From contig KE159530.1 of assembly GCA_000403215.2 (NCBI GenBank), forward strand, positions 62,001-126,000: DNA of 64,000 bases, in the 5' to 3' direction. The stretch comes from Lachnospiraceae bacterium A4. Lineage in GTDB: Bacteria > Bacillota > Clostridia > Lachnospirales > Lachnospiraceae. The position numbers and the translations under genes were made by a program. Shown here piece by piece: positions 9,533 to 24,813 of the stretch. A model generated the notes under the pieces. That model was not told where the DNA came from. It saw only the letters and a list, made by a program, of their open reading frames with translations, and made no database searches. Positions within the stretch are counted from its first letter, which is position 1, and each line of letters opens with the position of its first letter.

Positions 9533-10576
9533 TTACTTTTTTTGAGAATCTGTTCTGGCGGAGATACTTAGTGGTTTCAATACCTTGTAACGGATAAAAG
9601 CGGCTAATTGTGGAGAATATTGAGCAAGCCACTGATATCCGGAAACCAGAAAGGACGTGCGGAGTTCTTTTCTTTTTCTATCCATCAAGAAGTTGTGCAG
9701 ATATTGCAAATCATGCATACATGCTTTTCTTTTGAGAAGCGAGACTGCGTTGTGGAGCAAAAGCTTTTTGTGTTCCTCAAGTTCGACGGGCTGAGGATCC
9801 CAATTGATTACATCGTATTGATCCGGGGTATATAAGGGAAGGAACTTTTCCAGCCATCCAAATCGTTTGTCAAATCCGTCTTTCACGACAATGACAGGGA
9901 TTCCCATGGCCATACATGGAACAGCGACATGTAATCGGGAAGTAATGATTAAAGTGGCCTCATTGTAATATCTCGAATAAATATTTTTGGTTTTTTCCTG
10001 AATGATATCTGCAATTTGCTGCTTTGGCAGATTTCTGTCAATAGGAATATCCTGTGTTGTGTATTCTGCTGACTGCATTATATGTTCAGGAACATAATGT
10101 ACTGCTTTGGGGTGTACGTCAACGAGGAATACATGCGGGGTTTCCGGGACAAAATCGCGTCTTGGAAACAGAGATGTAATACATCCTAAGAGATACGCAT
10201 CACATCCGTTTTTACGCATTGCCTGCATTGTACTTTCATCCCTGCATCCGATAGGCTCAAAATTTTTCCAAAATTTTTTGTGCTTTAGGTATTGTTTTGC
10301 GGTACAATGCAGACTTAAAAAGATTGGTATGATGTCGTTTGAAGCTGGGAATACGGGATTTCTGCTCTCATATTGAAAGTAACCAGCAATCGGAAGAATG
10401 ACCTTTTCACCTTGATACGTGCGAATTTCGTCAATCGGAATATTGATGATATCATCTTGATGAAGCTGCATTTCTTTATATATAATATCTACGGCAAAAA
10501 TCTGTGCTGTGTCGCCGGCATTAAAGAAATTGCGTTCAATTGCGCGATTAGCAAATGTTATTCTTCCCCATTTCAT
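9533..10576 (-). CDS. Polysaccharide pyruvyl transferase family protein (copy 2)
   Basis: 347 residues. The family's C-terminal core is visible as ATLIITSRLHVAVPCMAMGIPVIVV (the R-H pair before a GT-B-like nucleotide site), and GCRDESTM lies in the middle. It should add a pyruvate ketal from PEP to a sugar in the glycan, giving negative charge; some members act differently, so the exact reaction is inferred. It begins four bases after the stop of the upstream paralogue, with AGGAG as ribosome site. The two copies are similar along their whole length, indicating tandem duplication. Confidence 0.85.
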   Translation of the reverse strand: MKWGRITFANRAIERNFFNAGDTAQIFAVDIIYKEMQLHQDDIINIPIDEIRTYQGEKVILPIAGYFQYESRNPVFPASNDIIPIFLSLHCTAKQYLKHKKFWKNFEPIGCRDESTMQAMRKNGCDAYLLGCITSLFPRRDFVPETPHVFLVDVHPKAVHYVPEHIMQSAEYTTQDIPIDRNLPKQQIADIIQEKTKNIYSRYYNEATLIITSRLHVAVPCMAMGIPVIVVKDGFDKRFGWLEKFLPLYTPDQYDVINWDPQPVELEEHKKLLLHNAVSLLKRKACMHDLQYLHNFLMDRKRKELRTSFLVSGYQWLAQYSPQLAAFIRYKVLKPLSISARTDSQKK

Positions 10577-10579
10577 GTT

Positions 10580-11623
10580 TTATGTCTCCTTTTTGTCAGA
10601 AAGCGCGGTTGTGGAAAAAGCTTTTAGAATTTTTTTCTGGATAAATTCGGCAAGTGCCGGAAAGTATTGGGCAAGCCATATGAAACAGGATGTTAATACT
10701 GGTGTATGGAGGTTCTTTCTGGTTCTGTCCATATAAAAGGAATGGGTAATTTCCAGGTCACGAGTATCTGCTTGCCTGTTTAATAGTTTTATGACGGCAT
10801 GCATTAATCTTTCCTTGTGTTCCGTAAGGTCAAGTGGCTTGGGATTCCAGTTTATTTTGTCATATTCATCAGGAGTATATAACGGTACAAACTTGTCCAG
10901 CCAGCCAAATCGTTCGTCGAATCCGTTTTTTACGACGATTGTAGGAATTCCCATGGCAATACATGGAGCGGCAGCATGAAGTCTGGAAGTAACGACGAGA
11001 GTGGCTTCATTATAATAGCGTGCATAAATTTCTTTGGTTTTTCTTTGAATCTGTTCCGTTATCTGATTTTTGGGCAGACTTCTGTCAATCAGTATGTCAT
11101 GAGTTATATATTCAGCTGATTCCATAAGTTTTTTTGGAATATATTCAATTACTCTGGGCTGGACGTCGATCAGAAAAACATGCGGCTTGTCCGGATGAAA
11201 GCTGCGTTTTGGGAATAGTGTAGTGATACAGCCTAGCAGATATGCATCGTATCCTTTCTGACGCATTGCAGCCATGGTATTCTCATCGCGGCAGCCGATT
11301 GGCCCGTATTTTTTCCAGAAATCGGCATGTTTCAGATATTGCCCTGAGGTACAGTATACACTTAGGAATATTGGAATAATATTTTTAGAAGTTGGGAATA
11401 CAGGATGTTTTCTGCTGTATTGGAAATTACCAGCCATTGGAAGAAGAACGGTTTCCCCATTGTAGGTACTTATTTCATCAGCGGGTATGTCAACAATCTG
11501 ATCGGAATCTATTTGCATTTCTTTGTAGATCAAATCCACGGCAAAGGTTTGCATGACATCACCGATATTACAAAAATTTTTATAACATAAAGAAGTCGCA
11601 AATGTTATTCGTCCCCATTTCAT
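10580..11623 (-). CDS. Polysaccharide pyruvyl transferase family protein (copy 1)
   Basis: 347 residues, the same length as its downstream paralogue and sharing MKWGRITFA at the start, GCRDE in the middle and ATLVVTSRLHAAAPCIAMGIP near the end. The start is set by AGGGGAG about six bases upstream. It is the first gene of a two-gene minus-strand unit whose start lies 52 bases from the edge of the invertible segment at 11676. A strong promoter inside that segment points straight at it, so in this orientation the unit is predicted to be ON. Confidence 0.87.
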   Translation of the reverse strand: MKWGRITFATSLCYKNFCNIGDVMQTFAVDLIYKEMQIDSDQIVDIPADEISTYNGETVLLPMAGNFQYSRKHPVFPTSKNIIPIFLSVYCTSGQYLKHADFWKKYGPIGCRDENTMAAMRQKGYDAYLLGCITTLFPKRSFHPDKPHVFLIDVQPRVIEYIPKKLMESAEYITHDILIDRSLPKNQITEQIQRKTKEIYARYYNEATLVVTSRLHAAAPCIAMGIPTIVVKNGFDERFGWLDKFVPLYTPDEYDKINWNPKPLDLTEHKERLMHAVIKLLNRQADTRDLEITHSFYMDRTRKNLHTPVLTSCFIWLAQYFPALAEFIQKKILKAFSTTALSDKKET

Positions 11624-11675: not shown

Positions 11676-11703
11676 ATCCTTAAGTACCCAGCTAAAGGAT
11701 TTT
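11676..11703 (+). repeat. Left inverted repeat/recombination site of switch 1
   Basis: A 28-bp sequence that recurs inverted at 12762-12789 with 27 of 28 matches. Its internal layout is that of a tyrosine-recombinase core site: 9-bp inverted arms ATCCTTAAG (11676-11684) and CTAAAGGAT (11692-11700) around a 7-bp spacer TACCCAG (11685-11691). The spacer is identical in the other copy. Confidence 0.9.
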
Positions 11704-11713
11704 CAATAGCTTT

Positions 11714-11743
11714 ATCATAAACTATTTTTACATATATTGTCAA
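11714..11743 (-). promoter_or_regulatory. Outward promoter at the left end of switch 1
   Basis: On the minus strand TTGACA (11743-11738), an 18-bp spacer, then TATGAT (11719-11714). Transcription would start close to 11707, just inside the inverted repeat, and run left into the pyruvyl-transferase genes. After inversion it would run right into the gene at 12863. Confidence 0.75.
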
Positions 11744-11766
11744 GAATTTAGCCCAAAACCATTATT

Positions 11767-12732
11767 TTAGGTAGGTAGCTGTTCATTTATTTTGTCCATG
11801 AGTTCGACACATTTTCTTTTTTGCTCAATGCTTGGATGTACATATAAATTCATTGTCGTGTGTACACTGGCATGTCCAAGTATCTCACTCACAGTCTTGT
11901 AATCGGCGCCGGACTCAATGCATCTGGTGGCAAAGGTATGTCTCAGGCAATGAAAATTTAATTTCCGGACATCCAAAGAGTCCATAAATTGTGAATAAAA
12001 ATTTCTGTATGTCCGTGGTTCAATGTACTTTTCGGTGTTTGTCAGGACATATGCGTCAGGGTTGTTGATATATAATTCTTCCAGTGTCTGTGTGAGTTTC
12101 GAGGAAATTGGGACTTCACGTATTGCGTTGCATGTTTTTGGAGGAGTGATACTTATCTTCGTATGTTTTTCTTCAATTTCATCCTTAAAATATAGTCTTT
12201 GCAAAGTTTTTGAAATTATTATGGTTCCATTTTCCAAGTCAACATCCGACCATTTTAATGCACATAACTCGCCAATTCGAATTCCAGTATAGAGACTGAT
12301 TAAAATCCCGTTTGATTTATTTGTTAGATTGGTTAGTATGGAATTCACTATGGTCTGTTGTTCTCGAATATTATATATTTGTGCAGCTGTGTTTTTGTTT
12401 TTACATACCGGGACTGTTAAGTTTATTTTTTGATTTGGTATGTAATTTTTCTGCATTCCATAGTTTAAACATAGTTTAAAAATTAAAGTGATGTCCCGGA
12501 TCGTTTTTTCAGAAAGAGGCATATTGCCCCGCAGACGGTTATTTTCATACCAATTTGATAATTTCTGATCCAGTATATCCGATGTCATCAGGACACAGTC
12601 TATGTTACCGAATAAGAGAAAAAGATGATTTTTTAACTGCACTGCATAAGTGCAGTAAGTTGATTCTTTTATAAATTTTTTTTGAGAAACAAGCCATTCC
12701 TCTGCAAGGTCTTTAAATGTAAAGGAGTTCAT
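11767..12732 (-). CDS. Tyrosine site-specific recombinase
   Basis: 321-residue phage-integrase-family protein. An N-terminal SAM-like core-binding domain (about 1-105) precedes the catalytic domain. The catalytic set appears complete: Arg152 (TGIRIGE), Lys175, His261 and Arg264 (HCLRHTF), His287 (LGHASVHTT) and nucleophile Tyr297 (NLYVH). Start 12732 has a GAAAGGCGG ribosome site; the frame remains open further upstream but lacks a better site. The gene lies wholly inside a pair of 28-bp inverted repeats that look like its own recombination sites, so it is best read as a DNA invertase rather than the integrase of a larger element. No other mobile-element genes adjoin it. Confidence 0.92.
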   Translation of the reverse strand: MNSFTFKDLAEEWLVSQKKFIKESTYCTYAVQLKNHLFLLFGNIDCVLMTSDILDQKLSNWYENNRLRGNMPLSEKTIRDITLIFKLCLNYGMQKNYIPNQKINLTVPVCKNKNTAAQIYNIREQQTIVNSILTNLTNKSNGILISLYTGIRIGELCALKWSDVDLENGTIIISKTLQRLYFKDEIEEKHTKISITPPKTCNAIREVPISSKLTQTLEELYINNPDAYVLTNTEKYIEPRTYRNFYSQFMDSLDVRKLNFHCLRHTFATRCIESGADYKTVSEILGHASVHTTMNLYVHPSIEQKRKCVELMDKINEQLPT

Positions 12733-12761
12733 ATTTGTAGTCCGCCTTTCTTCTTTGGTAT

Positions 12762-12789
12762 AAAATCCTTTAGCTGGGTAATTAAGGAT
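12762..12789 (-). repeat. Right inverted repeat/recombination site of switch 1
   Basis: Reverse complement of 11676-11703 with one mismatch. Read on the minus strand the arms are ATCCTTAAT (12789-12781) and CTAAAGGAT (12773-12765) around the same 7-bp spacer. It lies between the recombinase start and the flanking promoter. Confidence 0.9.
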
Positions 12790-12862: not shown

Positions 12863-13294
12863 ATGGTAATGATTATTGGTTATACAGCAGGTGTATTTGA
12901 CTTGTTTCATATTGGGCATCTTAATCTGTTAAAAAATGCGAAAGGATTCTGTGACAAACTGGTGGTTGGAGTGACGGTGGATGACTTGGTTGCCTATAAG
13001 GGAAAGTGTGCAGTAATGCCTTTTGAGGATAGGATTGAGATTGTCAGGAGTATTAAATATGTGGATGCTGCGGTGCCACAGTATGACATGGATAAACTGC
13101 TGGCATGCAAAAAGCTGGGGGCATCTGTTTTGTTTGTGGGTGATGACTGGTATGCGACAGACAAATGGAAAGAATATGAGCAGAAGTTTGACAGGGAGAA
13201 TATAGAAATCATCTACTTTCCATATACAAAGGGCATATCGTCTACACGAATTTCAAGTAAGCTTAATTTGCAGGATGATAGGAGTATGGAATAA
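12863..13294 (+). CDS. Cytidylyltransferase, TagD-like
   Basis: 143-residue nucleotidyltransferase of the glycerol-3-phosphate/ethanolamine-phosphate cytidylyltransferase group. The HxGH motif is at 16-19 (FHIGHLNLL) and the C-terminal signature is GISSTRIS. It should make a CDP-activated alcohol (glycerol, choline, ethanolamine or similar); which one cannot be told. ATG 12863 is preferred, with GGAAAG upstream. Its stop overlaps the LicD start by one base, so the activated group is probably handed to LicD. It is the first gene after the right edge of switch 1. Confidence 0.88.
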   Translation: MVMIIGYTAGVFDLFHIGHLNLLKNAKGFCDKLVVGVTVDDLVAYKGKCAVMPFEDRIEIVRSIKYVDAAVPQYDMDKLLACKKLGASVLFVGDDWYATDKWKEYEQKFDRENIEIIYFPYTKGISSTRISSKLNLQDDRSME

Positions 13295-14100
13295 TGACAT
13301 TGCAGGAGTATCAGGATATTTTGTTTGGGATATTGTGTGTTGTTGATGATATATGTAAGAAAAATCACATAATGTATATGCTCCATGGCGGCAGTATGCT
13401 GGGAGCCGTTCGTAACCATGACTTTATTCCGTGGGATGATGATGTTGATATTATTGTATGGCAGAAAGATTATGAATTGTTGTGTGCAAAGTTAAGGGAG
13501 CAGCTTCCGCAACATTTAAGAATCGTTACACCCAATGATTTACTGCCTAACTTCTTTGACTTTGTAACACGTGTGCAGGATATCCGCTATACAGTCCACG
13601 AACCGGCTGAGGAAGATTTGTTTTATGAAAACAAGCAGAATCATGCCTTTATAGACATTTTTCAATTTGTGTACAGTGCAAATACAAAATGGCAGATAAA
13701 GTGGATTGCATTGAAACATAAAATTTTATATGGATTTGGCATGGGGCACCGCTACCGGATTAATAGTGAAAAGTATACATGGATTCAGAAATGCCAGACA
13801 AAAGTCCTTAGCAGTATTGGCGCCACAATAGATATGGGGAAAATTTTAAAATGGAGAAACAGGCTCATTCATAAGCAGGGTAAATCGCCAAAAAGGTATT
13901 GTATGAGTGTGAATTCACCGCTGAGGGGGATTGGAATACCCTATGAAAGCGAGTGGTATTATGATGTCTGCTACATGCAGTTTCGTAACAGGCAATTTCC
14001 GGTTCCTAGGGGATATGACAGCCATCTTACCCTGCAATATGGCAACTATATGGTTCCTGACAAAGGAACAGGGGAATATGTGAAACATTTCATTGAATGA
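13294..14100 (+). CDS. LicD-family phosphotransferase
   Basis: 268 residues with the LicD nucleotidyltransferase-fold core HGGSMLGAVR and IPWDDDVDI near residues 31-53, where the Asp residues bind the metal. LicD proteins transfer phosphocholine, phosphoglycerol or related groups from CDP donors to glycans. Together with the cytidylyltransferase just upstream this makes a two-gene unit that puts a phospho-substituent on a surface sugar. It is translationally coupled upstream (TAATG). Confidence 0.9.
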   Translation: MTLQEYQDILFGILCVVDDICKKNHIMYMLHGGSMLGAVRNHDFIPWDDDVDIIVWQKDYELLCAKLREQLPQHLRIVTPNDLLPNFFDFVTRVQDIRYTVHEPAEEDLFYENKQNHAFIDIFQFVYSANTKWQIKWIALKHKILYGFGMGHRYRINSEKYTWIQKCQTKVLSSIGATIDMGKILKWRNRLIHKQGKSPKRYCMSVNSPLRGIGIPYESEWYYDVCYMQFRNRQFPVPRGYDSHLTLQYGNYMVPDKGTGEYVKHFIE

Positions 14101-14119
14101 CAGTCAAAGATGGTGTATC

Positions 14120-15442
14120 ATGACAACTGAAAAAAGAGAACAAATAGGGATTATGACGATAAATTTAAAGCGAGGATATATTTGGAACACAGTAGCTGGA
14201 ATACTGAACGCATCGGAAGCAATTATTATGTCCATGATTGTCACAAGAATGATGAGTCTCGCAGATGCGGGCATTTTGTCCATTGCGTTCACGATAGCAA
14301 ACCAGCTGGTGCTTATTGGTAAATTTGGATTAAGAAATTATCAGGTAACGGATGTAGGGGGGCAGTTTTCTTTTTCTATCTATTTAAAAACACGCGTGGT
14401 CACAGTAACTGGAATGATGCTATGTACAGGGGCATATCTGGGATATGCGGCGGTTTTTCTGGAATATAACAAAAATAAAATCCTGATTATTTTTGTGCTC
14501 TGTATGATTTATGCTGTGGAGGCTGTGGAGGATGTAATATGGGGATATTATCAGCAAAGGCATAGACTGGATTTGGGTGCGCAAATGTTTTGTGTCAGGT
14601 GGATGGGGATTCTGCTTACTTTTCCAACAGTATTGTATATAAGCAGGGATTTGAAGACAACACTTGCTATTTGCCTTTTTGTTTCATTACTGTTGTTTTT
14701 TTTGTTTGTAAAAATAACATATCCATATATATGTTGTGAAAATGAAGCAAATGTCAATATTTTCATTTGTAAAAAGGATTATCAGCAAATGGGTAAACTG
14801 CTAAAAACAGCATTTCCGCTGTGTGGCATTTCTGTTCTTCAATGCTATGTGGGAAGCGCGCCCAGATATGCAATAGATGCCTGCCTTACGGACGAGGTAC
14901 AGGCATGTTACGGATTTGTATCAATGCCTGTTTTTGCGATACGGCTGCTCAGTAATTTTATTTATCAGCCGCTATTGGTTCCCATGGCGGTTGAATGGGA
15001 GAACAGGCAAATAAAAAGTTTTACTGGCAGGGTAGGGAAACAGCTGCTGGTGGTTGCCGGACTATCCGTGATATGTCTTGCAGGGACATATTGGGTGGGA
15101 ATTCCTGTTCTTTCAGCGCTTTATCATACGAACCTGTCAGAATATAAGGCAGAACTTCTGATATTGCTTTTGGGGAGTGGGTTTATGGCGTGTGTGGCAT
15201 ACGAAAATGTCGTCTTGACAATTATGCGGTGTCAGAAAGTGCTGTTAGGACCTTACTGCCTGGTATCTTTTATTGCGGCAGTCGTTTTGCGGCCTGTTGT
15301 TTCCCTGTACGGAACACTGGGGGCATCGGTCTGCTATTTTATTTTTATGGCGACACTATTTTTGATATATACAAATTTTCTGTTTAGGAGACTGAAAAAA
15401 TGTAAAGTACACATCCTTATTCGATTCTTGTCATTGCTTTAA
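14120..15442 (+). CDS. Polysaccharide flippase (Wzx/MOP family)
   Basis: 440 residues from ATG 14120 (428 if the start is ATG 14153, which aligns better with the paralogue at 8241). About 12 membrane helices. WNTVAGILNASEAIIMSMIV and LIGKFGLRNYQV show it is a close relative of the flippase of block A. It is the last gene of the plus-strand cassette right of switch 1. Its 3' end overlaps the convergent serine-invertase gene by 12 bases, and no terminator separates the two. Confidence 0.85.
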   Translation: MTTEKREQIGIMTINLKRGYIWNTVAGILNASEAIIMSMIVTRMMSLADAGILSIAFTIANQLVLIGKFGLRNYQVTDVGGQFSFSIYLKTRVVTVTGMMLCTGAYLGYAAVFLEYNKNKILIIFVLCMIYAVEAVEDVIWGYYQQRHRLDLGAQMFCVRWMGILLTFPTVLYISRDLKTTLAICLFVSLLLFFLFVKITYPYICCENEANVNIFICKKDYQQMGKLLKTAFPLCGISVLQCYVGSAPRYAIDACLTDEVQACYGFVSMPVFAIRLLSNFIYQPLLVPMAVEWENRQIKSFTGRVGKQLLVVAGLSVICLAGTYWVGIPVLSALYHTNLSEYKAELLILLLGSGFMACVAYENVVLTIMRCQKVLLGPYCLVSFIAAVVLRPVVSLYGTLGASVCYFIFMATLFLIYTNFLFRRLKKCKVHILIRFLSLL

Positions 15443-16015
15443 TGCCTTGTAACGAAATGTGGATAACGGCATTTTACAGATTCTGGCGGCTTCTGTACCA
15501 GATATCTCACCCTGTTTCCAGCGAAGACATGTCATTTCAAAGTTATCAGGCAGTGGCTGGGCTGGCCTGCCGAAACGGACGCCACGTGCCTTGGCGGCAC
15601 AGATTCCCTCTGACTGCCGCTGGCGGATGTTTTCACGCTCGTTTTGTGCGACAAAAGAAAGAACCTGAAGCACTACATCACTCAAAAATGTTCCGATAAG
15701 GTCTTTTCCCTGACGTGTATCCAGAAGCGGCATATCCAGTACCGCAATGTCAATCTGTTTCTCTTTTGTCAGAATACGCCACTGTTCTATGATTTCTTCG
15801 TAATTGCGTCTCAGCCGGTCAATGCTTTTTATGAAGAGTACGTCATCTTTTTTCAGAGTCCTGACCATTTTTTTGTAGGATGGGCGTTGAAAATCTTTTC
15901 CAGACTGTTTGTCGATATAAATGTTTTGCGCAGAAACGCCGATGTCGTGTAATGCAAGCAGCTGCCTGTCCTCATTTTGCTCCCGTGTGCTGACTCGAAT
16001 ATATCCATAATTCAT
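15431..16015 (-). CDS. Hin/Gin-like serine DNA invertase
   Basis: 194 residues, the normal length for DNA invertases. The resolvase/invertase catalytic domain opens YIRVST with nucleophile Ser9; DRLRRN carries Arg67 and Arg70 of the active site. A long helix region and a C-terminal helix-turn-helix (GTEAARICKMPLSTFRY, last 25 residues) bind DNA. GGAGGG lies upstream. It is the fourth and last gene of the minus-strand unit beginning at 19524, immediately left of the 26-bp inverted sites at 19554/19689. It is the natural candidate for the enzyme that flips that segment, and flipping would change its own transcription. Confidence 0.92.
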   Translation of the reverse strand: MNYGYIRVSTREQNEDRQLLALHDIGVSAQNIYIDKQSGKDFQRPSYKKMVRTLKKDDVLFIKSIDRLRRNYEEIIEQWRILTKEKQIDIAVLDMPLLDTRQGKDLIGTFLSDVVLQVLSFVAQNERENIRQRQSEGICAAKARGVRFGRPAQPLPDNFEMTCLRWKQGEISGTEAARICKMPLSTFRYKALKQ

Positions 16016-16092
16016 TCTCTATCCCTCCAAATATATGTAGATTTGTGTTTGGAAAAATTATATACTTTTTGAATGGGGGATTGTTATTGAAA

Positions 16093-17595
16093 TTAAATTT
16101 TTGGTTTTCCTTTTGCGATAAGCTGATTCCATTCATTTTTATAAAATAGATAGGAATATGTACTGGTTACAAGGGCAGAAAAACAAAACACAATGACTGC
16201 ATTCTTAATCCATTCTATATAATTGTGAGCTTCCTGTACCTGAATTGGAAGATAATGGAGACATAGCAATATTGTACAGGTATTGATTGCAGTAATGCAC
16301 CAGCGCTTTATAAAAGTAAACATTTTTCGTTTTATAATATTTTTCGATAAATATAAAACATAGTAGATGGTTCGGTAAAGCATTGCGATGACAGTTGCCA
16401 GTGCAACGCCTACAATACCCTGCTTGTGTACAAGAATAAGGGATAACAGTATATTTAGTCCGGCTTCTATAAAAGCAGCTTTTTTAGTGGATTTAAATTC
16501 TCCGGCAGCAATTGTCAATTGATGGTAGGGCTGCCTTAAACAATAAATGCCTTCGGCGAGCAAAAGTAATCCTGCAACAACAGGTCTGTAATATTCTGCA
16601 TCCGTAAATGTATTTGTATATAAACGAATAAATGGCATAATCATAATTGCTCCCGTTGTAAATACAATTATTACGACTGAATGAATCAGAAATTCCATAA
16701 AATCAAAGAACTGAATTAAATGTCCGCGTTCGTGTCGTGCAATCATGTTTCCAAATACAGCTTCCGAGCCAGAAGTAAAGAAACCCGTGAGTGTCACAAG
16801 GCTGGTCATGATATAGCTATATATAGAATAAACAGCAACCTCTGCTGAGGATACAAAAATAGTCAATACAAAAAAATCAGTCTTGGAATGCAGAAAATAT
16901 GCAATATGTTGTCCCAGACAATCCCATTTTTGCTTTAAGTAATCTGCTTGGGCAGGAATTTTTTTGACACCATAGCGGTTTTTAACGTATTTATTCAGTA
17001 TAAAAATCCTTATAATATGAAGGAAGCAGTAAAAAAATTTAACGGATAAAATATTGCAGTTATAGTGAATAAGAACACAGGTTAGCAAGATGTTGAATAT
17101 CGTGGTCACACTTTGAAGAAGCCGGATGACATATCCCTGCTGAGCTGCATGAAGCAGTATCGAATTTGAAATCCCCATATAATACTCTGCAAGGTTTGAT
17201 AAGGAGATTACGATAACCAGGCAAAAAGTGAATTCCCAGTCAAGGCTATAACTTGAGGCAATGTATTGGAAGGAACAGGCGAGAATGAATGTATAGCCAA
17301 TGAAAATAAGGGCAATCTTTTTAAAAAACTGCCGTATAGAAGCCAGCACGAGGTTTATCGTATTTGTATCGTGTTCAGAAAGCGGGCTATATAGCGCCGC
17401 TCGCGCCACGCCGCCGATTCCCCCCTCCAGAAGGGAAATATAACCGAGGAATTCCGTTATAGAGACAGTCGTACCATAAAGCTCAGATCCAAAACCGAAT
17501 ATCATTAGTCTTGGAAGCAGTATACCACAAATGATGCCAATGAGCTGGCTGAAAAGTGATGCAACTGTGTTATAAAGAAAATGTCTGCTCCGCAT
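16093..17595 (-). CDS. Polysaccharide flippase (Wzx/MOP family)
   Basis: 500 residues from ATG 17595, chosen for its AAAGGAAG ribosome site over ATG 17625. About 12 to 14 hydrophobic helices; the start YNTVASLFSQLIGIICGILLP is the typical opening of a MATE-like lipid-linked oligosaccharide flippase, and the LEGGIGGVARAALY loop is shared in kind with the flippase at 22040 (AELGIGTAM...LY). It is the third gene of the left cassette of switch 2; the right cassette carries its own flippase, so the switch probably selects one or the other. Confidence 0.85.
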   Translation of the reverse strand: MRSRHFLYNTVASLFSQLIGIICGILLPRLMIFGFGSELYGTTVSITEFLGYISLLEGGIGGVARAALYSPLSEHDTNTINLVLASIRQFFKKIALIFIGYTFILACSFQYIASSYSLDWEFTFCLVIVISLSNLAEYYMGISNSILLHAAQQGYVIRLLQSVTTIFNILLTCVLIHYNCNILSVKFFYCFLHIIRIFILNKYVKNRYGVKKIPAQADYLKQKWDCLGQHIAYFLHSKTDFFVLTIFVSSAEVAVYSIYSYIMTSLVTLTGFFTSGSEAVFGNMIARHERGHLIQFFDFMEFLIHSVVIIVFTTGAIMIMPFIRLYTNTFTDAEYYRPVVAGLLLLAEGIYCLRQPYHQLTIAAGEFKSTKKAAFIEAGLNILLSLILVHKQGIVGVALATVIAMLYRTIYYVLYLSKNIIKRKMFTFIKRWCITAINTCTILLCLHYLPIQVQEAHNYIEWIKNAVIVFCFSALVTSTYSYLFYKNEWNQLIAKGKPKI

Positions 17596-17638
17596 TTGTC
17601 TGCTTCTTCCTTTCTGCAATGGCATGATATAGGCTGGG

Positions 17639-18610
17639 TCATTTATTGTTTACGAAATAATCTGAATCTGTTTCATTTGTACACAAGCCTTGAATATAAT
17701 TTTTCAGTGAAATCAGGTTTATCTGTCCTCTGGCAATCATCGGAACGCCATGCTGGATATAGACTTTTATTATAAATAAGTACTTTTTAAGGCCGTAATG
17801 GCGGCGTACTGCTTCTGCCAGCCTTATGCTGCAGGCATACTGCATTCTTTTCAGGTCTTTTTTTGAAAAATGCCTTAACAGAAAATCACAGACGTTTATT
17901 TCCTCGTGAAGTCTCATTAGAAAAACGTCCCAGTCAGTGTGTGTTGTGAGAGAACCATGGCTTCTTGTCATGCAATAAATCGTATCTCTGGATGCTGTTA
18001 TTTTTCGGCTGTAATAACCAGTTTGGGCAGTGAACATGATGTCGTTGGAATATTGTATTTCTCTAAATTGTATATTGTGCTGCCTTATGAGCTCGTGCCT
18101 GATTAACCTGGAACAGGGGGAGCAGGTTGATATTTTTAGCCGTAAAATGTTTTCCCTTGTTGGCTTTTCAAGGAATTCATCAATGCAGTTTTTCAGTTTT
18201 AAATGTCTGTTGGCAGTTTCTCCTGTATCAAGGTAGATGCTTGTCGGGGTAAAAAACACTTCATCATAATTTGTATCAAAATAAGGACAGATATTCTCAT
18301 ACATTTCTGGCAGAAAGAAATCATCCGCGTCTGCAAAAAGAATCCACTTGCCATCTGCATGTTGTAATCCGACATTCCTACAGGCTCCGGCACCTTTTCG
18401 CCCAGTGCCGTTTACGTAAAACTCGACTTGTGCACAATATTTTCCTTGTAAGTCCGCCAGTATATCCAGATGACAGTCGCTGTTGTCATCAACCACGATG
18501 ATTTGTATGTCTGGACTCTGCGGAATGGAATCAATTAACTTATGCAATAAATGCGGCGTATTATAGTGCGGAATAATGATACTGAGGTTCTTTGGAAAAT
18601 TTTGGCTCAT
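17639..18610 (-). CDS. GT2 glycosyltransferase, left-cassette paralogue
   Basis: 323 residues. GT-A fold with LSIIIPHYNTP, IIVVDDNSD and the DXD motif in LFADADDFF. It is strongly similar along its whole length to the gene at 19748-20725 in the opposite cassette, for example DEVFFTPTSIYLD, GAGACRN and HYGLKKYL versus HYGLRKYL. The start has GGAGGA eight bases upstream. Alternative alleles of one transferase placed on either side of an invertible promoter suggest the switch changes a linkage or sugar in the same glycan. Confidence 0.88.
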   Translation of the reverse strand: MSQNFPKNLSIIIPHYNTPHLLHKLIDSIPQSPDIQIIVVDDNSDCHLDILADLQGKYCAQVEFYVNGTGRKGAGACRNVGLQHADGKWILFADADDFFLPEMYENICPYFDTNYDEVFFTPTSIYLDTGETANRHLKLKNCIDEFLEKPTRENILRLKISTCSPCSRLIRHELIRQHNIQFREIQYSNDIMFTAQTGYYSRKITASRDTIYCMTRSHGSLTTHTDWDVFLMRLHEEINVCDFLLRHFSKKDLKRMQYACSIRLAEAVRRHYGLKKYLFIIKVYIQHGVPMIARGQINLISLKNYIQGLCTNETDSDYFVNNK

Positions 18611-18639: not shown

Positions 18640-19524
18640 TTATTGGCTGCAATTTACTAGAAATTGAAAAACATTTGGATATAATTGTTCAAGCTTCTGT
18701 ATATATAAATCATTTTCACAGTGCACCACATTTTTTATTGAAAGGGCATCTTTTTGGGCACTTTTTACTAATGGAGGCAGCATTAAATGATTTTTGACCC
18801 AGATGACGGTAACATGGTTTTTAAGTTCCATTGCTTTGAGCCACAAATCATCTGCGTTCAGACAATATTTTTTTATATTATCTACTATAAATGTCTCTTC
18901 GGGAAGTATATGTGGCGGATAAAGTGTGCCAGCGCCTCCGGTAGCACATAACAGATAGGAAGGAGTCCGTATTCTTCGGTATTCATATTTCCAGTCGCTG
19001 TATTTTCGCAGTCTGCCGTTAGAATCAAGGGTTATTAGGTGGACTCTTCGTGCACAGACAGAATGGGGATATTTTTCATGGGTTTTCATTAAGGACTCAA
19101 TTAAATCGTGTGGGTATATAATGTCATCATCAACTGTAATAATGATGTCGTCTGGGAATTCCTTCATTACATAGAAATATTTTCCATATGACCTTAAATC
19201 AAGATTTCGGTGCTTATACTCTATGCCATATTGTTCAAATGTCCGCATTTCTTCTGTTATTTTATTTTCGGGGATGTCCTTGTCCAGCCAGACAATAATA
19301 CGATCCGGCTTTACCGTCTGAAGCAACAGGCTTTTTAAGGTAATTCCAATTGTTTTATAACGTTTGTTGTATGTTTTTAGAGACAATATAATTTTTTTAG
19401 TTCTGTTTTCCGCTGTATTTATGCCAAATTTGTATGGTGAAAACTTGACTTTCTGCCGGACGAACATTCCAGAAACCATGTCTGGAATATGTTCAATGGA
19501 TTGTTGAAGTTTATATAAATTCAT
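18640..19524 (-). CDS. Glycosyltransferase, GT2-like
   Basis: 294 residues. IILSLKTYNKR at the start, then IIVWLD and a probable DXD-type site ITVDDDIIYP near residues 135-145, followed by GGAGTLYPP; this is the pattern of a glycosyltransferase subgroup found near polysaccharide pyruvyl-transferase genes. Acceptor and donor unknown. It is the first gene of the left cassette, with a good ribosome site (AAAGGGAG) lying outside the invertible segment, 29 bases from the left recombination site. Expression is predicted only when the promoter in the segment points left. Confidence 0.75.
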   Translation of the reverse strand: MNLYKLQQSIEHIPDMVSGMFVRQKVKFSPYKFGINTAENRTKKIILSLKTYNKRYKTIGITLKSLLLQTVKPDRIIVWLDKDIPENKITEEMRTFEQYGIEYKHRNLDLRSYGKYFYVMKEFPDDIIITVDDDIIYPHDLIESLMKTHEKYPHSVCARRVHLITLDSNGRLRKYSDWKYEYRRIRTPSYLLCATGGAGTLYPPHILPEETFIVDNIKKYCLNADDLWLKAMELKNHVTVIWVKNHLMLPPLVKSAQKDALSIKNVVHCENDLYIQKLEQLYPNVFQFLVNCSQ

Positions 19525-19553: not shown

Positions 19554-19579
19554 TCGTAAAAAAGTGTACTTTTTTGTAA
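19554..19579 (+). repeat. Left recombination site of switch 2 (hix-like)
   Basis: 26-bp imperfect palindrome with inner arms AAAAAAGT (19558-19565) and ACTTTTTT (19568-19575) around the asymmetric dinucleotide GT (19566-19567). It matches the inverted site at 19689-19714 at 24 of 26 positions. Size, arm symmetry and a two-base core are those of Hin/Gin/Cin crossover sites. Confidence 0.88.
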
Positions 19580-19632
19580 AAGCAGCGCCATTGCAGAATC
19601 GTGGAATCCTATGTCGAAAGAGGCGAAAAATT

Positions 19633-19663
19633 ATTATTGCAAACTCGTTGGAACTGATGTAAA
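19633..19663 (-). promoter_or_regulatory. Candidate promoter inside switch 2, leftward
   Basis: Minus strand TTTACA (19663-19658) and AATAAT (19638-19633) with a 19-bp spacer. Good hexamers, poor spacing. It would drive the left cassette in the orientation shown. Confidence 0.3.
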
Positions 19664-19665
19664 CT
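19637..19665 (+). promoter_or_regulatory. Candidate promoter inside switch 2, rightward
   Basis: TTGCAA (19637-19642), 17-bp spacer, TAAACT (19660-19665). Ideal spacing, moderate hexamers. It would drive the right cassette (19748 onward) in the orientation shown and the left cassette after inversion. Confidence 0.4.
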
Positions 19666-19688
19666 AATGGAGAAACACAAATGCAGAC

Positions 19689-19714
19689 TTACAAAAAAGT
19701 ACACTTTTTTGCAA
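19689..19714 (-). repeat. Right recombination site of switch 2 (hix-like)
   Basis: Inverted copy of the 19554 site. The two 12-bp arms (19689-19700 and 19703-19714) are complementary at 11 of 12 positions around the core dinucleotide AC (19701-19702), the complement of GT in the other site. Matching cores in inverted orientation are what productive inversion requires. Confidence 0.88.
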
Positions 19715-19747: not shown

Positions 19748-20725
19748 ATGAAAAAAGAATGGAAAAGAAACCTAAGCATCATTATCCCGCATTATAATAC
19801 GCCTGATTTGCTGGAGAAACTTATCCGTTCCATTCCGGCAGACAAGGAGATACAGATTGTGGTCGTTGATGATAACAGCAGTGCGGAATTGGACAAGCTT
19901 GGGCGTGTGCGGGCAGAATATGGTCAGAACGTCGAATTTTACGTGAATGATTCGCATGTGAAAGGTGCCGGGGCATGTAGAAACATCGGATTGAAGCATG
20001 CGGATGGAAAATGGCTGCTGTTTGCCGACGCGGATGACTTTTATGTGGAGGGAATGTACGACACAGTAGCTGCATATTTCGAGTCCGATTATGACGAAGT
20101 TTTTTTTACGCCGACCAGCATTTATCTGGATTCGGGAAAACCGTGCAACAGGCACGAGGCCTATGAGAAGCGGATAAACCAGTATCTTGCAAATCCCAGC
20201 AGGGAAAACCTGCTGCGTATTAAGCTTGCGACAAATGCGCCGTGGGCATGCATGATTCGCCATTCGGTTGTGCGCCGGAACAACATTCGTTTTGATGAGG
20301 TACTGTTTTTTAATGACATTATGTTTATGACCAGAACAGGATACCACAGCGGCAAGGTCAAAGTTTCTCAGGAGACCATATACTGTGTTACGAAAAGCAA
20401 GGGCTCGCTGACAACGCATATAGAGTGGGATGCCTATGAAATTCGGCTGAAGGAGTTTTTAAAGGTCTGCCGGTACATCAAGAAAAAATATCCCAAAAAG
20501 GATTTCAAAAAGCTCGACTGTACAGGCTTGGGGATGATATGTATGGCAGTGCGGCAGCATTATGGACTCAGGAAATACCTATATATTATAAACAGGTTTT
20601 TTCAGAGCAGGATTCCGCTCTTTTCCTGGAGACAGCTGAATGTTGACTTGCTCAAAAAATGGGCGGACAATCGCAGTCACAGGAAATTGGATTCAAATTA
20701 CTATGTGAAGCAAAGTGTGAAGTGA
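19748..20725 (+). CDS. GT2 glycosyltransferase, right-cassette paralogue
   Basis: 325 residues. GT-A fold with LSIIIPHYNTPDLL, IVVVDDNSS and DXD in LFADADDFY. It is the counterpart of the gene at 17639-18610 in the left cassette, similar from end to end. Its leader has only a weak purine-rich ribosome site (AAAGG at 19726, rather distant), in contrast to the strong site of the left cassette. First gene of the right cassette of switch 2. Confidence 0.88.
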   Translation: MKKEWKRNLSIIIPHYNTPDLLEKLIRSIPADKEIQIVVVDDNSSAELDKLGRVRAEYGQNVEFYVNDSHVKGAGACRNIGLKHADGKWLLFADADDFYVEGMYDTVAAYFESDYDEVFFTPTSIYLDSGKPCNRHEAYEKRINQYLANPSRENLLRIKLATNAPWACMIRHSVVRRNNIRFDEVLFFNDIMFMTRTGYHSGKVKVSQETIYCVTKSKGSLTTHIEWDAYEIRLKEFLKVCRYIKKKYPKKDFKKLDCTGLGMICMAVRQHYGLRKYLYIINRFFQSRIPLFSWRQLNVDLLKKWADNRSHRKLDSNYYVKQSVK

Positions 20726-20753: not shown

Positions 20754-22028
20754 ATGGATAAAAAAACGCAGAATATTGACAGGACAACAGAGGACGGGCT
20801 TTGCACATCATGCGGGGTATGTGCGGCGGTATGCCCTGTATCCTGCATTCGTTTTGAGCGGCAGGAGGAGACCTATCTGCCGGTCATTGACTATGATAAA
20901 TGCATCCGCTGCGGAAAATGCCTTAGGGTATGCCCTGGGTATTCATACACGTACAGTGCCGTGACAGAGCGGAAACCAGTCTGTTTTTCTGTACAGGCAA
21001 AGGAGAAAAAGCTTTTGAAACACGCTTCCAGCGGCGGTCTGGTCACAGCCATGGTACAGAAATTACTGCGGGACGGGCAGTACCACACAGCATTTCTTGT
21101 ACGGGACTACGATTATGAAAATCAGCTGGAGACGCAGTCTGTTCGGGACGGGGAAATACTTCAAAGGACACAGCAGTCGAGATATCTTCCGGTATCGCAG
21201 GAGAAGGCAGTGCGGTTCATCTTGGGAAATCCCGACGAAAAGGTTATTTTTGTCGGGACAGGCTGTGCAGTGCACGGACTGTGCAATGCGCTGAAAGAAG
21301 CGGGGCGCAGCCGTGAGAACATTCTGGTACTGGGGTTATTTTGCGATCAGACAATGACCTATTCCATATATGAATATCTAAAGCGGCTAAAACGGTGGAA
21401 CAGTCCAGTGAAGGCACTGCATTTTCGGGATAAGAGAGCGGGCGGCTGGCCGGGAAATATCCGCATGGAGTTTCAGAATGGAACGCATGTGCATCTACCG
21501 GCGAATGAGCGGATGATGGTGAAAGAGTTCTGCAGACAGAAAAGATGTCTTTACTGTATGGACAAATTAAATGCAGCGGCAGATTTATCCGTGGGGGACA
21601 ATTACACCAAAAAGGATGACTCTGCCGAAGGATCGAGCAGTCTGATTATCAGGACAGCGTCCGGACAGAGGGCATGGGAGTACTGCCAAGAGGAATTTTT
21701 CGTGTCCCAAGCGCAATATCTGGATATCGCAGATTCACAGCATTTGGAAAAAAAGCTTGAAAACCAGTGGAGAAACAATCTGGTATTTGCACAGGCACAG
21801 AATGGGCGTCAGGTGGAATACGGGGTTCCCTGTGATTTGTTGCCATACGGGGCAGCGGCAGACAAAGCCGGAAACAGGGACAAGGCGCGCCTGAAAAAAC
21901 AACTGAGAAAACTGCGTCTGGGAGAAAACCGCTCGTATGGACGTATCAGATGGTACCACACGGTGAAACGAGCCAGAATGGATCTGGGCAGACTGCTAAT
22001 TGTGCTGCATTTGCGCAAAAAGTCATGA
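20754..22028 (+). CDS. Ferredoxin/F420-hydrogenase-beta-like iron-sulfur protein
   Basis: 424 residues. Two 4Fe-4S motifs at the N terminus, CTSCGVCAAVCP (17-28) and CIRCGKCLRVCP, are followed by the coenzyme F420 hydrogenase/dehydrogenase beta-subunit domain with SSGGLVTAM and FVGTGCAVHGLCNAL, and a further Cys group CRQKRCLYCMD. Proteins of this type often sit beside polysaccharide pyruvyl transferases in glycan loci of anaerobes, as here (23614), but their reaction is not established; a reductive modification of a sugar is a reasonable guess. GGGAGAAGAG is the ribosome site. Confidence 0.85.
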   Translation: MDKKTQNIDRTTEDGLCTSCGVCAAVCPVSCIRFERQEETYLPVIDYDKCIRCGKCLRVCPGYSYTYSAVTERKPVCFSVQAKEKKLLKHASSGGLVTAMVQKLLRDGQYHTAFLVRDYDYENQLETQSVRDGEILQRTQQSRYLPVSQEKAVRFILGNPDEKVIFVGTGCAVHGLCNALKEAGRSRENILVLGLFCDQTMTYSIYEYLKRLKRWNSPVKALHFRDKRAGGWPGNIRMEFQNGTHVHLPANERMMVKEFCRQKRCLYCMDKLNAAADLSVGDNYTKKDDSAEGSSSLIIRTASGQRAWEYCQEEFFVSQAQYLDIADSQHLEKKLENQWRNNLVFAQAQNGRQVEYGVPCDLLPYGAAADKAGNRDKARLKKQLRKLRLGENRSYGRIRWYHTVKRARMDLGRLLIVLHLRKKS

Positions 22029-22039
22029 TGGAGAAATAG

Positions 22040-23590
22040 ATGAGAGTAAAAAAGGCAATTATCAATATCGTGGTGGGGGGAGTAGGGACACTTTTTTCCG
22101 GTGTGCTTCTTTTTGTGAGCCGTATTATTTTTGTTCAGTTTCTCAGTGATGAATATTTGGGGGTTTCCAGCCTTCTCACTAATATTTTGTCCATTCTCAG
22201 CATGGCAGAGCTGGGGATTGGAACGGCAATGGGATTTAGCCTTTATGAGCCGCTTGCAGAGGGGGACAAAGAGAAAATCAAGTCCATTATGCACTTCCTC
22301 AAACACATCTACTTTCTGATTGGCTTTGTCATTATGGCGGCAGGTACGGTTCTGCTTCCATTTTTGCCGTGGCTTGTTAAGGGAACGACAGATTTGGTGG
22401 ATTTGAACTTGATATATATGCTGTATGTGGTTCAGTCAGCATCATCTTACTGGTTTTGGGCATATAAGAGTATTCTTCTGCGCGCGGATCAAAAGTTGTA
22501 TCTGGTAAACTTTTACCAGGTTATCATCAATTTTCTGGTGACAGCGGTTCAGCTCGCCACGCTCGCAGTGTTTCGGGATTTTTTGCTCTATTCCGTTATA
22601 GGGCTCCTTTCAAATGTCCTGATTAATATTACTGTTTCGATTACAGTGGACAGGGTATATCCCTTTATAAAGGATTCTGATTATGAGAAGCTTCGGAAGG
22701 ACGAAAAAAGACACATTTTTAAGGATGTCTTTGGCATGGCACTGTTTAAAGTGAATACAACCATTGTCAATTCTACAGACAATATTCTGATATCGGCATT
22801 TATTCATGTGAAAGTTGTGGCACTGTATGGAAATTATCAGACAATAATTTATGGGATTTCCCAGATTGCCATGCAGCTGTTTGCAGGGGTAACGGCAACG
22901 ATAGGAAACTTATTTGTCGAGGAGTCGGAGAAAAAAAGTGAGTTTGTATTCCGGTGCATACAGCTGCTCTGCTACTGGTTCTATTCGTTTGTCGGCATTG
23001 GTATTTTGGTGCTAATCAATCCGGTCATCCAGACTTTTTTTGGCAAAGAGAGAACTTTCTCGGCAGACCTGGTATTTTTGCAGATCTTATATTTTATGAT
23101 AAACGGATTTCAAAGAACTTCATTTATATACAGGGATGCCTGCGGGCTTTTCTGGAAAGGAAAGATGCGGCCTGTTATGACGGCAGTCTTAAACATTATT
23201 ATTTCGGTTGTGCTGGTTGTGCGGATCGGGCTTGCAGGGGTTATTCTGGGAACGATTTTGAGCTGGCTGCTGACAACTTGGTGGTATGACCCGGTATTGA
23301 TTTATCGAAATGTCTTTAAGATGCCGGTCAGGCATTACTTTTATGCATACGGAAAGGCTGTTTTTGTAACACTGATTATGGGGACGGCAACCGTGTGGCT
23401 GACATCCGTGATTCCGTTTGGCGGCATAGGGGGATTTGCTGCGCGGTGTTTTGTGGCTGTGCTGATTCCAAACAGTGGGTATTTTTTGTTTTACCATAAG
23501 ACGGCAGAGTTTGGATACTTAAAAGAGACTCTGTTCAACGGATACAAAAAAATAATTAGCAAATACAAGGAAAAAACACGCAGGGCGTAA
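22040..23590 (+). CDS. Polysaccharide flippase (Wzx/MOP family)
   Basis: 516 residues with about 14 hydrophobic helices, starting AIINIVVGGVGTLFSGVLLFVSR; SMAELGIGTAMGFSLYEPLAEGD is a typical first-loop motif of the oligosaccharide flippase subgroup. Export function for a lipid-linked glycan is inferred. Third gene of the right cassette of switch 2, eleven bases after the iron-sulfur gene and 23 before the pyruvyl-transferase gene. Counterpart by position and family of the left-cassette flippase at 16093. Confidence 0.87.
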   Translation: MRVKKAIINIVVGGVGTLFSGVLLFVSRIIFVQFLSDEYLGVSSLLTNILSILSMAELGIGTAMGFSLYEPLAEGDKEKIKSIMHFLKHIYFLIGFVIMAAGTVLLPFLPWLVKGTTDLVDLNLIYMLYVVQSASSYWFWAYKSILLRADQKLYLVNFYQVIINFLVTAVQLATLAVFRDFLLYSVIGLLSNVLINITVSITVDRVYPFIKDSDYEKLRKDEKRHIFKDVFGMALFKVNTTIVNSTDNILISAFIHVKVVALYGNYQTIIYGISQIAMQLFAGVTATIGNLFVEESEKKSEFVFRCIQLLCYWFYSFVGIGILVLINPVIQTFFGKERTFSADLVFLQILYFMINGFQRTSFIYRDACGLFWKGKMRPVMTAVLNIIISVVLVVRIGLAGVILGTILSWLLTTWWYDPVLIYRNVFKMPVRHYFYAYGKAVFVTLIMGTATVWLTSVIPFGGIGGFAARCFVAVLIPNSGYFLFYHKTAEFGYLKETLFNGYKKIISKYKEKTRRA

Positions 23591-23613: not shown

Positions 23614-24813
23614 ATGAGGTACATTTTAATTACAGGTATCAATTTTAACAACAAAGGTGCGGAGGCGATGATGTTCCATTTGTATCATTACCTGCAAAAG
23701 AGATGGCCGGATAAGAAAGTGGTCGCACTGTGTAAGAACTCTGAAGAACAGCTGAAAAAATATAAGGAACGGTATAAGCTGCGTACCTTGTCATTCTATC
23801 CGGCAGATTTTTTTGACGCACAGGGAGGAATATACAGGATTGCAGGCCGCATCAGGGGCATACAGAGCCAAAGGAACAGTGCCGTTCTGCGCAGGGTTTT
23901 GCGCAATGCGGATTTGTGTGTGGATGCAAGCGGGTTTGTTTTTTCAAGTAAATTCGGACTGCTGGATAATTATGTATGGCTGAAAAAAATAGCGCTTATG
24001 AAAAAGAATAGGATTCCTGTAGTCGTTATGCCGCAGTCGTTTGGCCCGTTCGACTATCCGAAGTGGGCAGGATGGGGACTGATGCGGAATGCGAAACGGA
24101 CGTTGCAGTACCCGAAAAAAATTTATGCAAGGGAGCAGGCTGGTTTTGATGTGATGAAAACATACTGTCTGGCAGAGAATCTTTTTCTGGCGCCCGACTT
24201 GGTTCTGCTGGGGGAACATCTAAACCCAAAGCATTTTTACAGAAATCCGCGCCTGATGAAGACCTATGAAATAAAACCGGGAAGTGTAGCCGTAATACCA
24301 AACCAGAAACTGAAAGTACATGCGGCAGACGTGAATGGGCAAGAGATCTACGAGTCGGCAGTCCGCGCGCTGCTTCGCGCGGGAAAGAACGTGTACATTA
24401 TCAGGCACTGCGACAGCGACAGGGAGTTTTGCGCGGCTCTGGCAGACAAGTTTGGGGCGGAAGACAAGGTTGTGTATATTGATGATGAGATTGACTGCAT
24501 TGAGTTTTCAGGACTGATTGCGCAGGTTGACTTTGCAGTTGCCTCGCGATACCACGGTGTGGTGCATTCCTATAAGGCGGGTACGCCCTGCGTCGTGATT
24601 GGGTGGGCGGACAAGTATCAGGAACTGGCAGGGCAGGTTGCGCAGGAGAAGTATGTCATGGATTTATCCGAATATAGCGAGCGGATCCTTAATGGAATCA
24701 TCCACGAGATGAGTAAAAATTTTCGGAAAGAGAAACAGACAATTGCGCATAAATACATGCAGCTGATTGAGAACGGCGATTTATATGAAACCGCTTTCGG
24801 GTGGATGCGATGA
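23614..24813 (+). CDS. Polysaccharide pyruvyl transferase family protein
   Basis: 399 residues. Opens ILITGINFNNKGAEAMM (the usual N-terminal N-x-G-A-E-A motif) and has the C-terminal core ASRYHGVVHSYKAGTPCVVIGW, with MPQSFGPF in the middle. This is the CsaB/EpsO-like branch and is only distantly related to the two 347-residue copies at 9533-11623. The ribosome site is AGGAGG. Last gene of the right cassette; predicted to add a pyruvate ketal to the glycan that the cassette builds. Confidence 0.88.
   Translation: MRYILITGINFNNKGAEAMMFHLYHYLQKRWPDKKVVALCKNSEEQLKKYKERYKLRTLSFYPADFFDAQGGIYRIAGRIRGIQSQRNSAVLRRVLRNADLCVDASGFVFSSKFGLLDNYVWLKKIALMKKNRIPVVVMPQSFGPFDYPKWAGWGLMRNAKRTLQYPKKIYAREQAGFDVMKTYCLAENLFLAPDLVLLGEHLNPKHFYRNPRLMKTYEIKPGSVAVIPNQKLKVHAADVNGQEIYESAVRALLRAGKNVYIIRHCDSDREFCAALADKFGAEDKVVYIDDEIDCIEFSGLIAQVDFAVASRYHGVVHSYKAGTPCVVIGWADKYQELAGQVAQEKYVMDLSEYSERILNGIIHEMSKNFRKEKQTIAHKYMQLIENGDLYETAFGWMR

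Follow-up and report, generated by a model that had tools for sequence, protein, structure and literature searches.

The window analyzed here, a stretch of 64,000 nucleotides from the gut inhabitant Lachnospiraceae bacterium A4, carries at positions 19554-19714 what is very probably a two-way phase switch, in which a serine recombinase inverts a promoter-bearing spacer between two divergent glycan cassettes. An invertible promoter between such cassettes had been proposed in a first-pass annotation of the same DNA, and the proposal is now well supported by a relative in which the segment is inverted, by a conserved directional promoter match, and by the recombinase gene. From these sequence comparisons we infer that this enzyme would invert the spacer, that the promoter would be active, and that the surface glycan would change.

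Recombination Sites and the Spacer

The sites, the segment, and the divergent starts were confirmed as real. Two 26-bp sites lie in inverted orientation and are identical at 24 of 26 positions, with the asymmetric central dinucleotides GT (19554-19579) and AC (19689-19714) that the annotation had read, and perfect 22-nt arms (19558-19579 and 19689-19710) are separated by 109 nt (Table 1). The enclosed stretch had been put at about 134 bp, a figure that fits the core-to-core distance (135 bp) and not the sequence between the sites, measured at 109 bp. The absence of a gene was borne out, with no open reading frame of at least 80 aa in the window's list overlapping the segment, as were the divergent flanking starts, at 19524 (29 bp outside the sites) and 19748 (33 bp outside). 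The pair thus has the 26-bp length, 2-bp core and inverted orientation of Hin, Gin, and Cin sites, and the segment has the inverted repeats and predicted promoter of an inverton.

In a survey of site pairs the window's pair scored 34.0, against 20.0-23.0 for the best pair of each of 10 mononucleotide shuffles of the window. Over the whole genome (6,961,896 bases) the 18-bp motif AAAAAAGTNNACTTTTTT, with at most one mismatch, was found at the two site positions only, this search giving no second copy of the switch, and the motif AAAAAAGTNNACTTTTTT read backwards at 1 place in the same 6.96 Mb with the same tolerance; both patterns are palindromic, and each place is therefore counted on both strands. 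With two mismatches a 16-bp half gave 14 genome matches, including the two real ones, versus 12 for the reversed pattern.

Table 1. Features of the two switches and of their cassettes, in window coordinates.
Feature	Position	Strand	Remarks
Pyruvyl transferase, second-switch left cassette	9533..10576	-	
Pyruvyl transferase, second-switch left cassette	10580..11623	-	
Left inverted-repeat arm, second switch	11676..11703	+	
Predicted outward promoter, second switch	11714..11743	-	TTGACA-18-TATGAT; inside segment
Tyrosine recombinase inside repeats	11767..12732	-	ORF open to 12864; start 12732 chosen
Right inverted-repeat arm, second switch	12762..12789	-	
Protein we take, from its sequence, to be cytidylyltransferase-like; second-switch right cassette	12869..13294	+	
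LicD family protein, second-switch right cassette	13294..14100	+	
Flippase-like protein, second-switch right cassette	14093..15442	+	Polysacc_synt 28.1 bits, cut-off 28.2
Small serine recombinase (invertase candidate)	15431..16015	-	194 aa; last gene of left cassette; Pfam Resolvase 4.8e-27
TATAAT -10-like element	16057..16062	-	Upstream of invertase; poor -35
510-aa flippase-like membrane protein, left cassette	16093..17625	-	Similarity to 22040-23590
Family 2 glycosyltransferase, left cassette	17639..18610	-	Paralogue of 19748-20725
Family 2 glycosyltransferase, first left-cassette gene	18640..19524	-	
Left recombination site	19554..19579	+	26 bp; core GT; TCGTAAAAAAGTGTACTTTTTTGTAA
Invertible spacer	19580..19688		109 bp; inverted relative to flanks in L041/G036; window orientation in G005
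Predicted sigma-A promoter	19637..19665	+	TTGCAA-17-TAAACT; rightward in window
Right recombination site	19689..19714	-	26 bp; core AC (GT on minus strand); TTACAAAAAAGTACACTTTTTTGCAA
Family 2 glycosyltransferase, first right-cassette gene	19748..20725	+	
FrhB/FdhB-like Fe-S protein, right cassette	20754..22028	+	
Flippase-like membrane protein, right cassette	22040..23590	+	MatE 24.0 bits, cut-off 24.9
Polysaccharide pyruvyl transferase, right cassette	23614..24813	+	

Under a sigma-A-like scoring table, the predicted promoter of the spacer reaches 11.74, its 95% shuffle value being 9.5, and the best match on the other strand of the spacer 8.87. Its hexamers hold 8 of the 12 consensus bases, which is weak and counts against the switch reading, and a stricter scan at 9 of 12 found nothing inside the segment. 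The same two hexamers occur in the related locus L041, where the match points left and runs in the opposite direction relative to the flanks, and in genome G005, while the spacer of locus L122 holds TTGTAA-17-TAAACT with a score of 12.29. These matches exceed their own 95% shuffle values in G005 (10.69) and L122 (11.26), whereas that of L041, again 11.74, falls below its own (12.05), which likewise counts against the reading.

Orientation in Related Genomes

The closest comparison is offered by L041 (CASJPF010000025.1), which by its coordinates is apparently the same place as contig C25 of genome G036 and whose invertase is 93% identical. Together with its flanks L041 aligns to the window reverse-complemented (509.5 vs. 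253.5), its spacer alone aligns in the sense opposite to the flanks (220.5 vs. 83.0), and in a BLAST comparison with G036 the two outer pieces share a strand, the middle piece lying on the opposite one. Contig C39 of G005 ends inside the spacer, the part present being in the window's orientation, and this stretch scores 424 to L041 (site and right flank only) versus 364 to the window (spacer included). Since flank and segment senses are opposed in L041, and since G005, with a flank nearer to L041, has the window orientation, inversion has happened; orientation is here independent of relatedness, as expected for a recurrent flip, on the basis of three genomes. Comparison of related genomes, which the annotation had named as a check, therefore recovered both orientations (window and G005 vs. 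L041/G036), so that both exist in nature, between genomes of different species rather than within one culture. The gene set before the G005 invertase differs and lies on another contig than the site (locus L121), which counts against the reading and leaves this invertase only a candidate for the switch; the set is not claimed as the left cassette because the start of G005:C11 matches the window's left leader only at chance level.

The Two Cassettes

The left cassette runs in the order GT2, GT2, flippase-like protein, and invertase, with gaps of 29, 13, and 77 bp. Its second GT2 is 50% identical over 320 aa to the first GT2 of the right cassette, and the flippase-like proteins of the two sides (16093-17625 and 22040-23590) share 25% identity over 427 positions (1e-14), the 510-aa left one having no Pfam or NCBIfam match of its own. 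This pairing of paralogous glycosyltransferases and of similar membrane proteins across the two cassettes fits two alternative glycan modules. All seven cassette genes and the invertase recur in L041 at 76-93% identity, the locus ending within the pyruvyl transferase gene. In the window the right cassette has a leader about 10 bp longer than in L041, a difference that counts against the reading. The layout is also the same in L122, with divergent cassettes, the invertase (76%) last on the left, and 22-nt perfect inverted arms. There the left side carries, ahead of the invertase, genes for a sulfatase-family protein, two GT2, a 492-aa product with no family assignment, and a flippase-like protein, and the right side two GT2 followed by the start of an FrhB-like gene (73%).

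The Serine Recombinase

The product of 15431-16015 has the make-up of a small serine recombinase of the resolvase/invertase kind, namely an N-terminal Resolvase domain (residues 3-146 of 194 in Pfam), a C-terminal helix-turn-helix-like region, and a length of about 190 aa; an AlphaFold model of moderate confidence (pLDDT 75.7, pTM 0.46) predicts three C-terminal helices in 159-193. Its solved relatives by sequence are Sin (1.9e-27), gamma-delta resolvase (5.5e-20, then Tn3), and Gin (7.8e-14), and Foldseek with the model likewise ranks Sin and gamma-delta first, with Gin at 7.0e-4, all 25 matches at E of 0.001 or below being Sin, gamma-delta/Tn3, and Gin entries. The annotation's label "Hin/Gin-type" thus stands for the 26-bp sites with their 2-bp core and does not hold as a family label for the enzyme, to which Sin and gamma-delta are nearer than Gin by E-value. 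Two assignments were tried and rejected: a Hin/Gin lineage, on the E-value ranking of Sin (1.9e-27) over Gin (7.8e-14), and the Mpi equivalog NF009949, at 44.3 bits against a cut-off of 272.

The reading frame is intact. Residue 69 is Arg, next to a conserved Arg, and Gly in the other 33 sequences of a 34-sequence alignment; the substitution could lower the activity of the invertase, which counts against the switch reading. The TATAAT element upstream of the gene is also found in L041, L121, and L122, and the invertase may have a weak promoter of its own in addition to read-through from the left cassette. A quick 34-row tree places the invertases of the window, L041, L121, and L122 together on one side of a weakly supported branch (68) and groups those of the window, L041, and L121 at support 96. 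At an E-value of 1e-95 or better, matches to the invertase occur in six genomes besides its own, at up to 76% identity, among 397 genomes sampled from the family. Its own genome has 33 stretches that match the Resolvase family, the gene itself included. One of them, L127 (C40:75000-91000), is a 58% homologue with internal stop codons and apparently decayed, and another homologue (48%) lies on C38; in the 16 kb taken around each of these two, no site pair scored above 23.0.

A Wider Family of Invertases with Adjacent Site Pairs

Ninety-six invertase-bearing sequences were collected (the window, 80 loci, and 15 more, at least one contig being present twice), and a site pair was sought in the 700 bp after the invertase at a threshold score of 25, with at least 260 bp available there in 89 of the 96. 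The threshold was reached in 50 of the 96, compared to 1 of 88 control windows, and missed next to the invertase in 46, which counts against the switch reading; the window, L041, and L122 are among these 46 because their pair lies kilobases from the invertase. In 48 of the 50 loci the first core is found 26-60 bp after the invertase, and the core is GT in both sites in 47 and AT in 3, with the consensus TTaCAaAAAaGT-GT-ACTTTTTTGtAA. The one-sided module with an adjacent invertase is the usual form in this set, and the two-sided form of the window with its distant invertase a variant. By this co-occurrence the enzyme is probably linked to the sites. The palindromic AT core (GTATAC) is seen at L122:15415-15557 and L100:1928-2060; such a core would not alone set the direction of recombination, which for L122 counts against the switch reading.

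Promoter matches exceed at least 95% of their own shuffles in 34 of the 50 spacers, and the better match, called at a difference of more than 2 score units, points toward the invertase in 39, toward the target gene in 8, and is undecided in 3. Opposite spacer orientations next to similar flanks were found for L058 and L080 (flank 146/150, spacer 85/99) and for L129 and L131 (flank 141/149, spacer 59/67, with spacer lengths of 154 and 104), while the orientation is the same in L130/L132, L075/L084, L129/L134, and L046/L162/L163; weaker resemblances between spacers, close to the chance maximum (37 in 1000 shuffles), were left out.

The one-sided modules occur in Clostridia and in a Granulicatella, and have very different targets. 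A family scan of the first long ORF beyond the pair, run on 30 of the 50 loci, gave two C5 DNA methylases, two members of other methylase families (one of them falling just short of its cut-off), two helicases, four surface proteins of SLH or BspA type, one EAL/GGDEF protein, one TadZ, one bacterial sugar transferase, two Sel1 proteins, five TnpB/Cas12f-like proteins, and three from other families; seven ORFs had no family match. The methylases and helicases (L045:8798-9907, L075:7827-8936, L102:4637-6595, L058:3285-6458, and L107:8814-11255) are possible phase-variable restriction or defense systems. The TnpB/Cas12f-like genes directly after invertase and pair (L111:8804-10198, L119:8789-10003, L129:8689-10146, L131:8022-9515, and L132:8802-10142) suggest phase-variable RNA-guided proteins, the spacers of L129 and L131 being opposed.

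Helical Phasing of the Sites

Core-to-core spacings in the 50 loci range from 94 to 200 bp. After six near-copies were dropped and the window (135) and L122 (137) were added, the 46 spacings gave a vector length of 0.79 at 10.5 bp, centered on whole turns, a value reached by 0 of 20,000 even draws from 94-200; the 19 distinct spacings gave 0.73, again with 0 of 20,000, shared descent being removed only in part from this statistic. The simplest reading is that synapsis across such a short segment would require both sites to sit on one face of the helix.

Proposed Mechanism and Alternative Explanations

In the proposed scheme, the serine recombinase probably binds both 26-bp sites and brings them together, and cutting at the 2-bp GT/AC cores, rotation, and rejoining would leave the 109-bp spacer inverted. 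A rightward promoter, as in the window and G005, would drive the cassette of GT2, FrhB, flippase, and pyruvyl transferase, and a leftward one, as in L041, that of GT2, GT2, flippase, and invertase. Only 29 and 33 bp separate site and start, so that the cassette faced away from probably has no whole promoter outside the sites. A left-pointing promoter could read into the invertase, which would provide a feedback dependent on orientation.

It could be argued that a repressor or dual regulator uses the palindromes as operators, with the promoter region fixed and no inversion at all, and each site is indeed a near-perfect palindrome beside a start codon. This operator-only reading is rejected because of the inverted relatives, namely L041 and two further sets, in which the spacer runs opposite to conserved flanks. 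The 50 sequences, out of 96, in which similar site pairs follow a recombinase homologue speak against it as well; we regard it as barely credible. The opposite orientation of L041 might in turn be ascribed to misassembly of the inverted repeats, given that it comes from a metagenome-assembled genome, but the perfect repeat of 22 nt and the element of about 160 bp lie inside ordinary read lengths, and opposite orientations are met again in two other sets, which makes an artefact extremely improbable.

Accepting that the segment inverts, another recombinase of the cell could be responsible, the adjacent serine recombinase being a relic. The 33 Resolvase-family stretches of the genome, the tyrosine recombinase nearby, and the Arg of the window copy where the other 33 aligned sequences have Gly would all be in keeping with this, but the pairing of this enzyme family with this type of site recurs in 50 of the 96 sequences, the repeats that belong to the tyrosine recombinase are different ones, and the frame of the invertase is intact; such a relic is very unlikely in our judgment. 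The segment could also be an on/off switch for one cassette, with the other always expressed from an additional promoter. In most relatives that have a pair, it forms a one-sided module adjoining the invertase, and promoter-like matches do occur in the coding regions, albeit not above chance (20 found, 23.5 in shuffles). The 29 and 33 bp from site to start codon argue against this account, and the presence in both cassettes of paralogous glycosyltransferases and of related membrane proteins suggests alternatives; we consider it unlikely. The two-way switch remains the preferred reading.

A Second Switch Nearby

Unexpectedly, a second invertible element, mechanistically unrelated to the serine switch, lies between two further glycan cassettes at 11676-12789, 6.8 kb from it. 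Its inverted repeat (28 nt, 96%) encloses a tyrosine recombinase, and a 16-bp piece of the repeat, with at most one mismatch, has exactly two occurrences in the genome, one per strand. The end of the flippase-like gene of its right cassette (14093-15442) overlaps the end of the invertase gene, and its protein has no significant similarity to that of 22040-23590. The segment is inverted in G005 (L121) relative to the window: it aligns at 1147 versus 25, and the flanks in the opposite sense at 513 versus 25 and 698 versus 23. The predicted promoter faces the pyruvyl transferases in the window, and its counterpart TTGACA-18-TATTAT faces the LicD side in G005. Matches to the tyrosine recombinase at an E-value of 1e-80 or better were found in 5 of 38 genomes of the genus, its own included, those of G005, G029, and G027 each being flagged with one internal stop codon; the G005 recombinase is nevertheless open over 317 aa in the ORF list. 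In G029 (L175) a 68% homologue has similar arms and other neighbors. In G002 (L174) the recombinase is placed as in the window, but neither its first 25 residues nor one of the arms nor the beginning of the neighboring gene was found there, this copy being possibly locked; its flippase-like gene matches in two pieces (G002:C48, about 5900-8950).

The two tandem, unrelated toggles could together form a combinatorial generator of surface glycans with four expression states. As the invertase would be co-transcribed with one output, that state would raise its own flipping rate, and the serine state with the co-transcribed invertase would be self-limiting. We put forward this extended reading tentatively, as possible but on balance doubtful.

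Relation to Known Systems and Implications

To our knowledge, Fis is not expected in this phylum. Sin of Staphylococcus and gamma-delta/Tn3 resolve directly repeated res sites with accessory sites; they are the closest solved relatives of the window enzyme by sequence and by Foldseek E-value, whereas the two sites of the window are in inverted orientation. Mpi of Bacteroides fragilis is a small serine recombinase that acts on many promoter segments of glycan loci, unlike the window motif, of which there is one pair in the genome. Phase-variable glycan promoters have been studied best in Bacteroidales, where they act as on/off switches. Hin of Salmonella, in the portion of the source available to us, inverts about 1 kb between two 26-bp hix sites with a 65-bp enhancer that carries Fis sites and with help from HU (PMC3798978). 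The window resembles it in its two 26-bp sites, its serine recombinase, and a predicted promoter turned by inversion. It differs in its far shorter segment, with 109 bp between the sites, in an invertase gene that lies about 3.5 kb away from the segment, in having two divergent cassettes for targets, and in an enzyme that by sequence is of another lineage, nearer to Sin and gamma-delta.

As far as the accessible parts of these papers go, invertible elements in gut Clostridia have been described, where the most significant link between inverton and invertase joins a mostly Clostridia group to tyrosine-type recombinases, and where, one possible case aside, an inverton generally cannot regulate the invertase near it (PMC11892184); the invertase of the window, by contrast, is the last gene of one regulated cassette, a regulatable position. 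Resistance loci of Bacteroidales have invertible regions directly downstream of an invertase gene, and phase-variable glycan loci are far rarer in Firmicutes and other gut phyla (PMC8748976); the adjacent modules reported here also lie directly 3′ of the invertase, with targets that differ from these loci. The cps1 inverton of Akkermansia similarly places a capsule locus under an invertible element, but as ON/OFF control of one locus (PMC13343947), unlike the choice between two cassettes in the window. Nothing closer was found in the available text of PMC11868660 or PMC10939037. Among the literature titles and openings of abstracts covered, none described the present serine-invertase module or, for Clostridia, a glycan locus with two toggles, and individual elements may be listed already, for instance in surveys. 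An earlier survey is reportedly that of Jiang and colleagues in 2019.

The choice of target in the window is two-sided and its invertase distant, among modules that are mostly one-sided. The 10.5-bp phasing would allow a direct test of serine invertase synapsis over a short segment. For the Lachnospiraceae, the locus represents what is very probably a two-way switch whose probable enzyme is encoded inside one of its own outputs, with a second switch of the other enzyme class nearby.
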